33,419 nucleotides of DNA from assembly GCA_007376205.1 (NCBI GenBank), contig VMFU01000009.1, forward strand, positions 1 through 33,419, written 5' to 3'. The stretch is from Candidatus Peregrinibacteria bacterium Gr01-1014_25. GTDB taxonomy: Bacteria; Patescibacteriota; Gracilibacteria; Peribacterales; Peribacteraceae. The notes below the pieces were generated by a model. The model saw only the letters and a program-made list of their open reading frames with translations. It had not been told where the DNA came from and searched no databases. This document shows, piece after piece, positions 1-33,419 of the stretch; position 1 is the stretch's first letter, and each line of letters begins with the position of its first letter. Position numbers and translations under genes: made by a program.

Positions 1-312
1 CAAAGAAAGTGCACCGCCGCCAATTCCTCCTCCATACCGCGCCGTGTCTCGTCGCCGGACGGTCCAAGGCTTCCCGTCCGGCTCCTCGAAAGACATGCTG
101 CAAGCGGCGCTGCCCCTTCACCCCCCGTGGCGGCGGACCTCTCCACGACGAAAACAACCAACAGAAACAAGGCCCGGAGGGTCGCGACCACGGGGGGTGT
201 AAGGGGAAGCCCTGTCCCGTTGCTGCGAGCCGATCTCTCCGAGCGCCGAGGAGGAGAGACGGCGAGCACACAGGGCGGGAGGAGGGGCAATTGGTCGCGA
301 CGGCGTTCTTTG
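1..312 (+). ncRNA. Candidate large structured RNA (nested four-way junction)
   Basis: No convincing protein is encoded here, but the sequence folds into a fully nested structure. Closing stem: 1-7 with 306-312, 15-19 with 301-305, 20-25 with 289-294 and 26-33 with 278-285, 26 Watson-Crick pairs with bulges. Arm 1: 39-44/105-110, 45-49/91-95 and 54-62/74-82. Arm 2: 113-130/188-206, 18 pairs with one bulged T at 200, plus an inner helix 136-144/176-183 and an A-rich loop. Arm 3: 209-215/270-276, 221-224/265-268, 229-232/260-263 and 234-240/253-259. Linkers between arms are only 1-5 nt. The plus strand is preferred because the unpaired loops are A/purine-rich there. The stem reaches base 1, so the RNA may extend off the left edge. 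I do not recognise the family; it lacks tmRNA, SRP or canonical RNase P signatures. Confidence 0.5.
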
Positions 313-313
313 T

Positions 314-343
314 TGTCCTTTCTTTCGCCGGAAAGAAAGGACA
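314..343. repeat. Perfect 13-bp inverted repeat with GCCG loop
   Basis: Bases 314-326 pair perfectly with 331-343 around a 4-nt GCCG loop. The hairpin follows the candidate structured RNA directly and precedes proS. Neither side carries a clear T-tract, so a standard intrinsic terminator is not supported. It could be a 3' stabilising hairpin of the RNA, a processing site or a leader element. The left arm can also pair with bases 2-9, which gives an alternative fold. Confidence 0.6.
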
Positions 344-450
344 GAGAAGATGTTGAGATATCGCGTAGGGAAGTGACAAAGCTGCTGCTACAGAGAGGCA
401 AAAAAGGAAGCGCCGCATTGATACGAAGGAATATGATACTCTTTTTTCAC
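344..450 (+). promoter_or_regulatory. Leader region of proS with probable extended -10
   Basis: About 100 nt between the hairpin and proS. TACTCT (437-442), preceded by TGA, lies 8 nt before the ATG at 451, the spacing seen in front of many genes in this window. An AAGGA at 426-430 sits too close to the ATG at 433 and too far from the one at 451 to be a good ribosome-binding site. No clear -35 is visible. Confidence 0.35.
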
Positions 451-1728
451 ATGCTTCTCCTCTCCCACCTCTTCACGAAAACCTCGAAGGAAGCCGTTGC
501 CGATGCCGGCAGCGTGAACGCCGAGCTCCTCGTCCGCGCCGGATTCATCGCCAAGACGATGGCCGGCGTGTACTCCTTCCTACCGCTCGGGCTGAAAGTG
601 CTGCGAAACATCGAGCGCATCGTCCGCGAGGAGATGGACCGCATTGGCGCGCAAGAACTCCTCCTCTCCGCGCTGTCACCCCGCGAATACTGGGAGACGA
701 CCGGTCGCTGGGATCCCAAAGTCTTCGACGCCCTCTTCCACGTTCCGGGCGCGGGCGAACAGGAGTACGGCCTGAACCCGACCCACGAGGAGATCATCGT
801 GCCCGTCGCGCGGCAGTACGTCCGTTCGTACCGCGACCTGCCGTTCGGCGCGTACCAGATCCAGACGAAGTTCCGCAACGAACTGCGCGCGAAGTCGGGC
901 ATCCTGCGGGGTCGGGAATTCCTGATGAAGGACCTCTACTCATTCCACACCGACCAAGAGGACCTGGAACGCTACTACGCCGTCGTCCAGGACGCCTACG
1001 CCGCGATCTTCCGCCGTCTGGGTCTGGCGGAGAAAACGTACCTGACGTACGCCTCGGGCGGCAGCTTCTCGAAATACTCGCATGAGTACCAGGTAATCCT
1101 GCCCAACGGCGAGGACACCGTCTTCGTCAGCGTCGAAGCGGAGGAGAAGGGCATGCGCATCGCGGTGAACCGCGAGATCTACGAGCCGGGGAAGACCGCC
1201 TGCCCCGTGACGACCGGAACGACGTTCCGCGAGGAACGCGCCTCCGAAGCGGCGAACATCTTCATGCTCGGCACAAAGTTCTCCGCGCCGTTCGGCCTGC
1301 AGTACGCGACGCCCGAGGGGCAGATGAAGGACGTGATCATGGGATGCTACGGCATCGGCGTCTCGCGGCTGATGGGCATCATCGCCGAGGCCTTCGCCGA
1401 CGACGCCGGGCTGGTCTGGCCAAAGGCCGTCGCTCCCGCCGTCGCCCACATCCTCCCCATCGCCAAGAGCAAGGAGGATCCGGCGTTCACGACAGCCATG
1501 CACTGCGCAAAACATCTGGAGGACGCCGGCGTCCCCTGCATCGTCGATGACCGGCTCGATCCCTCGGCGGGCTCGCGCCTGGCGGATGCGGACCTGATGG
1601 GCCTCCCCTTCCGCATCGTCGTCTCGCCCAAGACCCTGGCCGACGACAAGGTGGAAGTGAAGGAGCGCGCCGGCGGCGCGGTGACCCTGTGCGGAACGAC
1701 AAAGCTCCTCGCGCTGGTGAGCGGCTGA
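451..1728 (+). CDS. proS: Prolyl-tRNA synthetase, short form without editing (INS) domain
   Basis: Class II synthetase that charges tRNA-Pro in the cytosol. From ATG 451 it is 425 aa. It shows the N-terminal helix and motif 1 region (LPLGLKVLRNIE), NPTHEE near residue 108, motif 2 (FRNELRAK..GRGREF type) near 140, motif 3 GCYGIGVSR near 297 and a C-terminal anticodon-binding domain from about 320. Typical bacterial ProRS is about 570 aa because a roughly 180-residue INS editing domain lies between motifs 2 and 3; here that interval is short, as in alphaproteobacterial-type enzymes. The frame is open upstream to 127, but that part overlaps the structured RNA and does not look like ProRS. ATG 433 is an alternative start; 451 aligns best with the family N-terminus (MLLLSHLF) and with the -10 spacing. 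Confidence 0.95.
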   Translation: MLLLSHLFTKTSKEAVADAGSVNAELLVRAGFIAKTMAGVYSFLPLGLKVLRNIERIVREEMDRIGAQELLLSALSPREYWETTGRWDPKVFDALFHVPGAGEQEYGLNPTHEEIIVPVARQYVRSYRDLPFGAYQIQTKFRNELRAKSGILRGREFLMKDLYSFHTDQEDLERYYAVVQDAYAAIFRRLGLAEKTYLTYASGGSFSKYSHEYQVILPNGEDTVFVSVEAEEKGMRIAVNREIYEPGKTACPVTTGTTFREERASEAANIFMLGTKFSAPFGLQYATPEGQMKDVIMGCYGIGVSRLMGIIAEAFADDAGLVWPKAVAPAVAHILPIAKSKEDPAFTTAMHCAKHLEDAGVPCIVDDRLDPSAGSRLADADLMGLPFRIVVSPKTLADDKVEVKERAGGAVTLCGTTKLLALVSG

Positions 1729-28983: not shown

Positions 28984-31900
28984 TTATTCGGATGCGACGG
29001 ACGATGCCTCCTGCGGTGGGGCCGATGCAACGGATTCTTCCGTGGTGGCGCTCGACTTCGGTGTTGGTTCCGCATCTGGCGACGACGCCGTTTCAACGGA
29101 AGACGCTTCGCTTGATGCCGCTTCCGAGCTGACGGCCGCCTCCGAAGAAGCGCTACTGGAAGCGCTTTCCGGCATGACTACGGATGCTGACGAGACTTCA
29201 GAAGATGAAGCTTCGCTCGATGCCGACGATGTGCTCATCGATTCGCTCAACGTCGCTCCGTCGAGCGACACACTCGACGTCGCTTCGGATGCCGTTGATT
29301 CCGAAGAGGATGTCACGACCTGGCTTGCGTACGACTGCACGACGATTTCGTAGCCCGACGGAATCTTTAGGACGGGCGGTTGCAGATAATCGTTCCACTC
29401 GAACGGCGGCAGACCCGGGACTTCCCACTTGTTCCCTTCATGGTACCGCGCACAACTCAAGGGTTGGCCGGCTTCATCGAGAAGCGTCTGGTTGCGCAGG
29501 CAAGCATCGGCGACGGTATTACCGGTGATCGGAATGCCCTTGTCATCGACGACGAACGGAATGGCGAACGCGTAGGCTGGGTCGGCAGGGTCCTCGCCGG
29601 AGACCGCCGTCTGCGGATCGATGCTGCCAAGGGCGAGCCAGGAGAACGTCACGTCGCGGCCGGCGGGAGCTGCCAGGCGGATGCTGAAACCCGTGAGGGT
29701 TGCTGGCTTCAGGGCGTAGAGCACGGGTTCGCTCGGCGATGCCGTGACGACGGGGAGGGCGATGAAGCCCGTCTGGAAGCGCACGGTGACGGATTCCATC
29801 CCCTGCTTCACGAGAGCGTAACCCGTCTGGCGGCTGGAGACGACGAGCTGCCCTTGGACGGTGACGTCGCCGAGGAACTCGGCGAGCCCGCTTATCGTTA
29901 TCGGCCCCACCACGCGCAACGCGCCGCGCAGGAGGAGGTCCGGCGCATCGATGACGGCCCCGCTGCCCATGAGAATCGACCCCGACCCCATCTGCAGGTT
30001 GCCGTACAGATTCAGCGCCCCATAGACCGTCGCGCCGCCGTTCGCCTGCAGGTGCTGCGCCGCGAAGCGTCCGAGTACTTCGGCGCTGCCATCGACACGG
30101 AACGTCCCCGGCACGAAGAGGTCTTGCACGTGGAACATGCCGTCGACGTGCAGATCGCCGACGACTCGCGCGTCGCTGCCGACGGTGAGCGTTGTCGCCG
30201 TTTCGATAGACTCGGCGCTGATGCCCGCCGCCGCGTGCAGAGATCCACTCAACGTAAGATCTTCCGCGGCACCTCTGTCCGAATCCCTATTCCCGATTCC
30301 CAAACGATCAGCTCCCGTCATCGTCTCCAGCACACTGCGAATTTTCTCTGACAGGAACGCATCCGTGAGTCGATCGCTCACTTGCGCCGCGATCTGATCG
30401 TCCAAATCGATCTGATCGACCGCTTCCTGGGCTTTCAGGCGCATCTCGTCGTCGATCTCCATGGCCGCGATCGCATCGGCAACATGCTGCTCCAGGGTGG
30501 CGACGGCCGCCGATTCGTTCTGCCGCGCGATGAGAACGTCGATCGTCCCCTCGCCTGTAGTCCAGCCTTCCAGGGCGACGCCCACGGTCGGCTCTCCTGG
30601 CAGCGCACGCCGCGCATATCCGGGCCTGTCCGCTGACGTCAGAGCATCGCCGGGTCGGATCGCCCCGCTGCCGGTCACGATGACCTTCGTCGACAATTGG
30701 CCAAGGAGACCCACGAGGACGGTACCGGGCACTTGCACCCCTTCGGCTCCGGAGAACTTGTTTCCGATGAACGCTGCCTGGGACGGGCTCGACACGATGC
30801 CGACGAGATTCCCGTCGGCCTCGCGATCGCAGCGCCGGACCGTGCTCGGACGCGTCACGTCAATGCAGACCAGTTCCCCTTGCCGCAGGTTGTCGCTGCT
30901 TACATAGAAGTATTCGGCGTAGTCCGCGCCGTTGCTGTTGAACGTACTGTCGGAATACACCGCTCCCGAGCCGTTGACGCGGAAGACCGTGTTCTCGTCA
31001 TGACCGACGTCGGTGACAATCTTGAGCATATCTTGTGCGCCGTTCGTTTCCTCGGAATCGAGGATGAGCAGGGAACGATTCTCGGTATCGGCAGCAGTGA
31101 GGACGACTTGCTTGTCCGCTTTGAGGTGTTCGATGGTCGATCCCGATCCTGCGACCAGGTCGAGTCCGCCCGCGGTCCCCAGCATGAAGTTTTTGATGAA
31201 GGCATTCACTTTGCCCACGCCGGAGCCATCGAAGCCCTCGTACGCCTGACCGATGATCGGATCGCCGCGGCGGGCTTTCATCGCGGCACCGGAGAGCGAC
31301 GACGGGGCAAGGAAATCACCGGGAGCGATCGCACCGTTCTCCGTGGTGACGTGCACAGGAACCCGTCCTGCGAGCGCAACGGGCACGGGGTATCCTTCGG
31401 ACGCTCCGCCACCCATGACGATATTCGGCGCAGACGAGACGATGCCGATGACGCGATCATCGCCCAGACCCTCGCTCTTGCGAATGCCGAAGGGCAACGA
31501 TGGATCGATGGCGACGATGTCGCCCGCTTCGAGCAAGCGATCGCGCGTGTAGTAGATTTCCGCAAGGTCGGCCGCTCCCGTGAGTTTGGCGTAGCGCAAA
31601 ATGGAGTTTTTGCGGACGATGTGCGTCGTGGCCGCCGTTGCCGTGCTCTGTGCCCATCTGAAGACGAAATTCGCGGCGGTCGACGACGTCTGGAGTACGC
31701 CCGTCACTCGGGTGTACCCCATGTATCCAGGGTTGCCGATGCCCAACTGATCCGCAAAGCATGTTTCGGTTGCAGGGGCGATAACGTAGCAATCGCTAAA
31801 TGCCGTTCCCGTCCCCGTGGTCTGTTCCACATACAGCCTGGTAGAGGCATTCGTGGGAATGGAGAAGCCAATGCGGATCGGTCCGCCGGCATCGGTCCCC

Positions 31901-33048
31901 GTGTCCCATCGAATGTACATTTCGATGACGTAAGCCGTGTTTGCCGAGGCGGCGAAGAGCAGTGCATCGTCATCCTGGAGCGCCGCGGAGTTCGTCACGC
32001 TTTCGTCAGCATTCTTCTCCACGGTGACCGGGCCGATCTGGTCGCACAGGAACCGTTCCGTCGTGTCGTCCCACTGGAGCGCGAAACCGGCGGTGTCGCA
32101 ATCGGTGAGACCCGCACCCGTCATCGAGGACGTAAAGAGCTTGTTGCCCGACATCGTCCCCTCGACGACAAGATTACCCGACGAGGCCAACGTTTTCTGC
32201 GCCCTGATGACAGCGCCGGAGATGGCGTTGAGGACGTTGAGTCCGAGGGTGTTGGGATTGCCGCCGGTGACGTTGATCGTCAGTGCTCCCGTCATCGTGT
32301 CGCCGGAGGTGTTGACGTAGCGGGAGTCTCCCAGCCGCAGTACGCCACCGGAGAAGGTGATAGTACCGACTTCGGGTGCACCTCCACCCGAATTTTGGTC
32401 CGTTCCACAGGAGAAGCGACCGGTCGAGGCGTCCCAGAGGAGCTTGCTCGTCGCGGCAGTGTCGCAGTCCGTAAGCCCTGCGCCGTTGAGGGAGGTGGCG
32501 ACGTAGAGGGAGGCGCCGGAGGCGGCACCCTCCCAGACGAGTGTGCCGGACGAGGCGAGGGTTTTCTGCGCCCTGATGACGGCGCCGGAGATGGCGTTGA
32601 GGACGTTGAGTCCGAGGGTGTTGGGATTGCCGCCGGTGACGTTGATCGTCAGTGCTCCCGTCATTGTGTCGCCGGAGGTGTTCACGTAGCGGGAGTCGCC
32701 GAGACGGAGAACACCGCCGGAGAACGACGACGTTCCAACCTCGGGCGAACCCGCGCTGTTCTGATCGGTGCCGCAGGAGAATCTTCCCAAGGTAGCGTCC
32801 CAGAGAAGCTTGGATGTGCCAGCGACATCACAGTCCGTGAGACCGACGCCGTTGAGAGAGGTTGCAACATACAAACTTGCGCCAGAGGCTGCGCCCTCCC
32901 AGACGAGCGTTCCCGAAGACGTCAGGACATCTTGCGCGCGGAGGAGGTACCGACTTCGGGAGCGTTTGTCGTATCGGTATCGGTGCCGCAGGAGAATCTT
33001 CCCAAGGTAGCGTCCCAGAGAAGCTTGGATGTGGTTGCGGCATCGCAA
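28984..33048 (-). CDS. Giant repetitive surface protein (main open segment)
   Basis: An open frame of more than 1300 codons and clearly the C-terminal bulk of a larger gene. It starts with 123-residue tandem repeats (GASLYVATSLNG, GLTDCD, KLLWD, GRFSCGTDQN, GGVLRLGDSRYVNTSGD, MTGALTINV). Next comes a region with two copies of an A-E-(I/Y)-(Y/F)-Y...GD/GE-(I/L)-V.ID...GIVSS module, similar to surface/tail autoprocessing domains. Then beta-solenoid-like strands (VQDLFVPGTFRVDGSAEVLG, LHLYGNLQMGSGSIL type), a folded domain with Trp near its end, and a final Ser/Ala/Glu-rich low-complexity tail. The codons between about 32945 and 33048 are out of the gene's true frame: upstream coding sequence lies in another frame (next entry), so the annotated ATG at 33048 is not the real start. 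Probably exported, adhesin or fibre-like; no anchor seen. Confidence 0.75.
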   Translation of the reverse strand: MRCRNHIQASLGRYLGKILLRHRYRYDKRSRSRYLLRAQDVLTSSGTLVWEGAASGASLYVATSLNGVGLTDCDVAGTSKLLWDATLGRFSCGTDQNSAGSPEVGTSSFSGGVLRLGDSRYVNTSGDTMTGALTINVTGGNPNTLGLNVLNAISGAVIRAQKTLASSGTLVWEGAASGASLYVATSLNGAGLTDCDTAATSKLLWDASTGRFSCGTDQNSGGGAPEVGTITFSGGVLRLGDSRYVNTSGDTMTGALTINVTGGNPNTLGLNVLNAISGAVIRAQKTLASSGNLVVEGTMSGNKLFTSSMTGAGLTDCDTAGFALQWDDTTERFLCDQIGPVTVEKNADESVTNSAALQDDDALLFAASANTAYVIEMYIRWDTGTDAGGPIRIGFSIPTNASTRLYVEQTTGTGTAFSDCYVIAPATETCFADQLGIGNPGYMGYTRVTGVLQTSSTAANFVFRWAQSTATAATTHIVRKNSILRYAKLTGAADLAEIYYTRDRLLEAGDIVAIDPSLPFGIRKSEGLGDDRVIGIVSSAPNIVMGGGASEGYPVPVALAGRVPVHVTTENGAIAPGDFLAPSSLSGAAMKARRGDPIIGQAYEGFDGSGVGKVNAFIKNFMLGTAGGLDLVAGSGSTIEHLKADKQVVLTAADTENRSLLILDSEETNGAQDMLKIVTDVGHDENTVFRVNGSGAVYSDSTFNSNGADYAEYFYVSSDNLRQGELVCIDVTRPSTVRRCDREADGNLVGIVSSPSQAAFIGNKFSGAEGVQVPGTVLVGLLGQLSTKVIVTGSGAIRPGDALTSADRPGYARRALPGEPTVGVALEGWTTGEGTIDVLIARQNESAAVATLEQHVADAIAAMEIDDEMRLKAQEAVDQIDLDDQIAAQVSDRLTDAFLSEKIRSVLETMTGADRLGIGNRDSDRGAAEDLTLSGSLHAAAGISAESIETATTLTVGSDARVVGDLHVDGMFHVQDLFVPGTFRVDGSAEVLGRFAAQHLQANGGATVYGALNLYGNLQMGSGSILMGSGAVIDAPDLLLRGALRVVGPITISGLAEFLGDVTVQGQLVVSSRQTGYALVKQGMESVTVRFQTGFIALPVVTASPSEPVLYALKPATLTGFSIRLAAPAGRDVTFSWLALGSIDPQTAVSGEDPADPAYAFAIPFVVDDKGIPITGNTVADACLRNQTLLDEAGQPLSCARYHEGNKWEVPGLPPFEWNDYLQPPVLKIPSGYEIVVQSYASQVVTSSSESTASEATSSVSLDGATLSESMSTSSASSEASSSEVSSASVVMPESASSSASSEAAVSSEAASSEASSVETASSPDAEPTPKSSATTEESVASAPPQEASSVASE
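32192..32929 (-). repeat. Tandem 369-bp repeat units inside the surface-protein gene
   Basis: The same landmark occurs at 32192 and 32561, a period of 369 bp (123 codons). About 80 bp inside the unit (from roughly 32214 and 32583) appear identical, while flanking parts differ, suggesting recent duplication or gene conversion. Shorter near-identical blocks recur around 32772-32820 and 32988-33036. Confidence 0.8.
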
Positions 33049-33419
33049 TCGGTGAGACCGGCACCTTGGACTGAAGTAGCAACGTAGAGGGAGGCGCCAC
33101 TCATGGCACCCTCGACGACGAGGGTTCCCGAGGAGGCGAGGGTGGTGCGGGCTTGGACGAGGGATCCCGAGACGGTCTGGAATTCGAGGAGAGTGCCGCT
33201 GATGGTCGAGGAGAGGGAGAAGGCGGTAGCAGTGAGGGTAAGGCCTTGGGCGGCGGTGTAGGTGGTGTCACTGTCACTGCCGCAGGAGAAACGACCTGTT
33301 GTAGCGTCCCAGGCGAGGGTCGAGGTGGCGGCATCACAATCGGTAAGACCTGCACCGTTAATGCTCGTACCGACGTAGAGAGATGCGCCACTTGCGGCGC
33401 CCTCCCAGACGAGCGTTCC
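32922..33419 (-). pseudogene. Upstream part of the giant surface protein, frame-shifted and cut by the right edge
   Basis: In this frame the sequence is open to the right edge and encodes more of the same repeat: GTLVWEGAASGASLY, GLTDCDAATSTLAWD, GRFSCGSDSD, then VVEGAMSGASLYVATSVQG and GRFSCGTDTD, ending at EVGTSS followed by ARKMS and a stop. The homologous repeat should continue FSGGVLRLG...; instead the DNA jumps at about 32935-32945 to the RAQ..L.SSGTLVWEG part, one frame off. About 50 residues of the repeat are missing at this join. Either the gene is truly broken or phase-variable here, or near-identical repeats were mis-assembled. Confidence 0.65.

Follow-up and report, generated by a model that had tools for sequence, protein, structure and literature searches.

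The window, the whole 33,419-nucleotide stretch of DNA that was analysed, begins with a large folded element ahead of proS, and the question is what this element is: a structured RNA, a long leader of proS, or something maintained as DNA. A sequence-only reading had described three long arms closed by a stem into a single four-way junction, and had left all three options standing. We find that positions 1-345 hold two inverted units, a dimer, of an intergenic palindromic repeat that is about 165 bp long and confined to one lineage; one unit runs from 136 to 1 on the minus strand and the other from 182 to 343 on the plus strand.

RNA folding of 1-345 reproduced the three arms (about 37-106, 109-206 and 209-276) and the closing stem (about 1-33/278-312). 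The fold has an energy of -184.1 kcal/mol against a shuffle mean of -139.3 (z = -8.5; 0 of 100 shuffles as good), so the view that it is very unlikely by chance was right, and DNA parameters gave z = -7.6. A 29-nt inverted repeat, 113-141/177-205, is 79% complementary. The two units, A and B, are 56% identical; the closing stem and arm 2 are the pairing of one unit with the other, and arms 1 and 3 are equivalent arms of both. Base pairing between two related units in head-to-head arrangement thus produces the apparent four-way junction, and this replaces the single-junction reading. The stem reaches base 1 because the assembly breaks there, at a contig end that falls within the repeat; the suspicion that the element might be larger proved sound, as other copies extend beyond it. 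The features of the dimer and its neighbour are as follows, R1 being a covariance model that we built from 31 units.

1-136, minus strand: repeat unit A, whose G-rich strand reads from 136 down to 1 (R1 match 113 bits, E 5e-27, truncated at 3').
14-22, minus strand: one arm of the unit A outer stem P1 (CCGCCGCCA on the plus strand), pairing with 128-136; P1 covaries at 9 of 9 pairs in 98 copies.
113-126, minus strand: conserved G-rich loop of unit A, GGGGGGTGAAGGGG on the minus strand, unpaired in the unit structure and nearly invariant across copies.
128-136, minus strand: other arm of the unit A outer stem P1, from sequence, R1 match and covariation.
137-181, no strand: spacer between the inverted units, which takes in each unit's G-rich left-end flank; the two other resolved dimers have a longer spacer.
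182-343, plus strand: repeat unit B, complete (R1 match 88 bits, E 1e-20).
182-190, plus strand: unit B outer stem P1 (TCGCGACCA), pairing with 292-300, a compensatory variant of CCGCCGCCA/TGGCGGCGG.
192-206, plus strand: conserved G-rich loop of unit B, GGGGGGTGTAAGGGG, from sequence and conserved across copies.
292-300, plus strand: other arm of the unit B outer stem P1, from sequence and covariation.
315-342, plus strand: unit B tail hairpin, GTCCTTTCTTTC-GCCG-GAAAGAAAGGAC, a perfect 12-bp palindrome; the tail helix covaries at 13 of 13 pairs.
451-1728, plus strand: proS (proline--tRNA ligase), the neighbour, outside the element (NCBIfam TIGR00409, 375.6 bits against a cut-off of 306.7).

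The tail hairpin of unit A is cut by the contig end; copies elsewhere run past base 1 with CTTTCTTTGTCTCCCCGCAACAAAGAAAGGACGA, and their leftward extension reads TTCAACATCTTCCCGTCCTTTCTTTGTCTCCCCGCAACAAAGAAAGGACGA.

A search with 1-345 of the window's own genome, assembled into 12 contigs (1.12 Mb, 99.9% complete), recovered two further full-length copies (85% and 82% identity) and several partial ones, along with many matches at contig ends. The element contains at least 14 of the 24 contig ends, base 1 included, and causes most of the contig breaks in this assembly. Inverted dimers were resolved three times, in the window and at two other places, which adjoin infB and a LysM/M23 peptidase gene (names read from translations). 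The element is absent at five proS orthologues in relatives and so is not a proS leader, the option that the sequence-only reading had offered. No conserved neighbour gene was found among the loci compared, namely the own-genome dimers and these five orthologues. One proS match (L281, G043:C1:834810-836072) has a single in-frame TAG within the aligned stretch.

The window's own genome holds a second, related repeat family (L012 450-600, L015 400-500 and the ends of L029 and L030), with tail CCACTTTCTTTGTCACCACACAAAGAAAGTAGCC and core CCAGCCGGGCATGGGGAGG; some of its copies are fused to unit B, giving mosaics. The right end of the window, 33101-33419, also resembles an assembly break: a coding repeat there, part of a large protein (ORF 28984-33048, minus strand), is shared with the end of contig C12 (G000 C12 388444-388643).

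Relatives carry the repeating unit singly, at a length of about 165 nt. Its parts are the outer stem P1, the G-rich internal loop facing GGGyGGAGGGG, an inner stem P2 and, optionally, a small hairpin, together with a long arm P4-P5, which a GACGA/GAGGA internal loop interrupts, and the tail hairpin; a direct repeat pre-echoes the 5' arm of this hairpin. A first MAFFT alignment misplaced P2 in one subgroup, and the counts were redone on a covariance-model alignment of 98 distinct copies. This alignment leans towards its model; in it 95.1% of pair cells were standard pairs, against 40-49% in slid controls. Double changes were seen in 40 of 41 pairs, with 689 double-change cells against 153 in shuffles. 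The independent MAFFT alignment gave 88% standard pairs and 113 double-change cells against 34.

The G-rich loop, the apical loop GAAkCCyTGGA and the GACGA/GAGGA internal loop are strongly conserved. The internal loop could be read as tandem G.A pairs flanking a C-G pair, which is flipped to G-C in seven copies. As the tandem G.A pairs would be T.C mismatches on the other strand, folding probably takes place on the G-rich strand. At least two GG tracts stand on each side of the G-rich loop in 94 of the 98 copies, with two GGG tracts in only 34, a pattern suggestive of a G-quadruplex and no more.

Among 57 Peribacteraceae genomes, 40 have the unit by R1 search, with up to 37 copies each; several have 20 or more, with 37 in G012 and 32 in G060. 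When the draw was widened to 287 Patescibacteria genomes, 11 of the 12 family members matched and none of the 275 genomes outside the family did, under stricter filters that could miss weak relatives. All 33 stretches in GTDB genomes with an exact match to a 21-base core are from Peribacteria/Peregrinibacteria. The copies sit mostly between predicted ORFs. No element head was found in the plasmid and phage carriers searched, and no viral contigs with the element were found. This is a real, lineage-restricted palindromic repeat family. A search of mainly non-subscription papers returned no description of such a family, nor did a term search of the Peribacteria genome paper find one mentioned. 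As members of the Candidate Phyla Radiation, Peribacteria have streamlined genomes, and here one non-coding element reaches 37 copies in genomes of 1.1-1.4 Mb.

Short forms of about 90 nt in G021, G045 and G019 are without the P2-P5 arm and keep P1, the G-rich loop and the tail hairpin. Very diverged forms in G045 (L178, L181, L183-L188) differ in their P1 (GTCCGGCCA/TGGCCCGGAC) and bear an additional 5' hairpin, CATTTTCGCAAAGCGAAAATG, and still keep GGGGGGTGAAGGGG and the tail design. In G012 (L196, L197) units are at times paired about 0.9 kb apart on the same strand.

Copy positions are polymorphic. Between the congeneric genomes G012 and G059, presence differs at 7 of about 22 testable sites and the remainder are common to both. 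Identity reaches 98.8% and 97.5% in two pairs of copies at non-orthologous sites, against 79-94% for positional orthologues, and copies from most other genera have their nearest relatives within their own genome. Such near-identity together with the presence differences would fit movement or conversion. Any movement would be slow, since many copies are shared at orthologous sites. The edges of the G012/G059 empty sites are not clean: they are blurred by 10-15% divergence and the indels extend past the unit, and within these blurred edges no target-site duplication or fixed target could be defined.

The orientation of the copies follows the GC-skew replichore. In G043, a single contig of 1,248,026 bp, all 4 copies at 156-404 kb are on the minus strand and all 14 at 678-1047 kb on the plus strand, with one minus copy at 1181 kb; the GC skew switches sign between the minus and plus blocks. 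G045 has 10 of 10 minus copies at 48-545 kb and 6 of 7 plus copies at 754-1179 kb, which matches the skew at replichore scale, single 10-kb values being noisy. The negative-skew strand carries 24 of 30 copies in G012 and 22 of 28 in G059, where about four of the misses are antisense self-matches of the tail palindrome; G044 looked less regular in its position list. Flanking genes may be co-directional, opposed, convergent or divergent, and this mixture means that gene direction does not explain the orientation. On the usual meaning of GC skew, the lagging-strand template would be the C-rich strand. Ribosomal protein L2 agrees with this in position and strand; dnaA and the 16S gene do not confirm it, and as markers of the origin the three give a mixed picture.

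We lean towards the view that the element is a non-autonomous mobile DNA palindrome, of the REPIN or PATE kind, copied through single strands exposed by replication, with its enzyme supplied in trans. The strand exposed as single-stranded DNA at the replication fork would allow the element to fold; the folded element would be recognised, then copied or moved by the enzyme, and this link to the fork would fix its orientation relative to it. The repeat family, its fold, its polymorphic multi-copy distribution and its replichore-linked orientation are observed; that copies transpose instead of converting, pass through single strands and depend on an enzyme is inferred. Against this view stand the lack of a candidate enzyme among the Y1 transposases and reverse transcriptases searched for, the unclean edges of the empty sites and the many copies shared at orthologous positions.

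REP and REPIN sequences are intergenic multi-copy palindromes, single or in inverted doublets, non-coding, and thought to move as single-stranded DNA (PMC3116915, PMC6006769). The element resembles them (and BIMEs) in being intergenic, non-coding, palindromic and multi-copy (up to 37 per genome), and in forming inverted doublets in the window and in the two other own-genome dimers. It differs in size, with a unit of about 165 nt and five helices against hairpins of 21-65 nt (PMC6006769). The GTAG/GTGG foot is not conserved, the left flank being G-rich and GGTGGG-like in some copies only, and the Y1 transposase of a RAYT (TnpA_REP) partnership is missing from most element-rich genomes. Because of these differences in size, foot motif and RAYT partner, we do not class it as a REP. 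PATEs are short and non-coding, with near-end palindromes and no target duplication, and persist where IS200 transposases are broken or missing (PMC3119063). The element is like these non-autonomous IS200/IS605 derivatives in being short and non-coding, with palindromes near its ends, and also in its replication-linked orientation; at its blurred edges no target duplication was visible. Unlike PATEs, it conserves internal helices and loops as well as near-terminal palindromes, and its copies pair as inverted dimers in the window's genome. As no IS605-type parent with matching ends was found at the ten Y1 loci of relatives that were searched (best R1 match E 0.11, not convincing), we do not class it as an IS605 derivative. 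By analogy, its manner of working would be closest to that of REPINs and PATEs.

Of 15 element-bearing genomes examined, 9 lack the Y1 transposase (Y1_Tnp, PF01797), among them the window's own, G012, G043, G044 and G045, and 11 lack the reverse transcriptase RVT_1, again including the window's own. Neither a Y1 transposase or RAYT nor a reverse transcriptase was retained as partner, as they are missing from most element-rich genomes. In G046, Y1 genes lie 2-5 kb from elements in inconsistent arrangements, which we take as coincidence. The mobilising enzyme may be divergent, lost or a host enzyme. Because the copies are so strongly oriented by replichore, fork-coupled DNA mobility can be tested directly and the missing enzyme looked for.

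A more specific proposal, which we put forward tentatively, is that this is a Peribacteraceae-specific single-stranded DNA element with a tertiary-like fold, possibly built on a quadruplex at the G-rich loop and tandem G.A pairs. Its propagation at forks would depend on an enzyme, of the host or of the element, other than a Y1 transposase or a reverse transcriptase, and its copies would record fork direction genome-wide.

The replichore orientation also raises the idea of a polar chromosome landmark, a host-selected DNA site for a motor or replication protein (KOPS/FtsK-like or Ter-like) whose orientation is kept by selection. KOPS/AIMS and Ter-type sites are G-rich and replichore-oriented, as is the element. 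The near-perfect replichore specificity, the G-rich core that is nearly invariant in 98 copies and the positions common to congeneric species all fit such a site, and the conserved loops would equally suit a selected function. However, copy number among family members runs from 0 to 37, congeners differ at about a third of sites, and the copies are elaborate and homogenised within genomes. The element is also long, mobile-looking and variable in number, and it places its G-rich strand on the C-skewed (negative-skew) strand, whereas KOPS and leading-strand polar motifs have the reverse placement. We consider this explanation unlikely.

A structured RNA family, in which the unit is transcribed from the G-rich strand as a multi-copy non-coding RNA or cis element, would account for the single-strand fold, the conserved loops, the 40 covarying pairs and the possible tandem G.A motif with its flipped central pair. 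The covariation is very strong, but the wobble pairs weaken the earlier suggestion of a novel structured RNA. An RNA under selection should keep G-U and avoid A-C; in the element both are equally rare, with 58 G-U against 54 A-C cells among 3904 pair cells in 98 copies, while 45 tRNAs of the same sequences show 22 against 1 in their acceptor and T stems. DNA is therefore favoured over RNA, and the near-perfect symmetric palindromes would match maintenance at the DNA level. The head alone has 44 G-U against 25 A-C, which may reflect a weak strand preference. Orientation also tracks replication rather than genes and is often antisense to the flanking genes, and there is neither a conserved neighbour gene nor an Rfam match: Rfam 15 gave no family at gathering score for 1-345 and nothing credible down to E = 5, in agreement with the earlier statement that no tmRNA, SRP, 6S or canonical RNase P core is present. 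An RNA is thus distinctly unlikely, and it was the option of a DNA-level element that gained support. Strong covariation without RNA-like wobble does mean that covariation-based RNA discovery could mistake this element for a non-coding RNA.

Least probable, and quite improbable in our view, is that the dimer is a decayed MITE or pair of transposon ends, a miniature inverted-repeat element moved by a conventional DDE transposase with its hairpins passive: like MITEs the element is non-autonomous, multi-copy and without coding capacity, and the dimer has long inverted termini, but the repeating unit is strand-oriented and single in most genomes rather than an inverted-repeat pair, no target-site duplication is seen at its blurred edges, and a DDE mechanism predicts neither replichore orientation nor conserved internal helices.

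Tail-hairpin-like sequences, CTTTCTTTGCTTCgTTTCTTTGTCG...GACAAAGAAA, also occur on megaplasmids of Caballeronia sp. SBC2 (L215 1495-1547, L216 1495-1547), at 13-20 places per replicon, where they stand behind an unrelated GC-rich head. This resemblance could reflect either convergence or a widely shared tail module.
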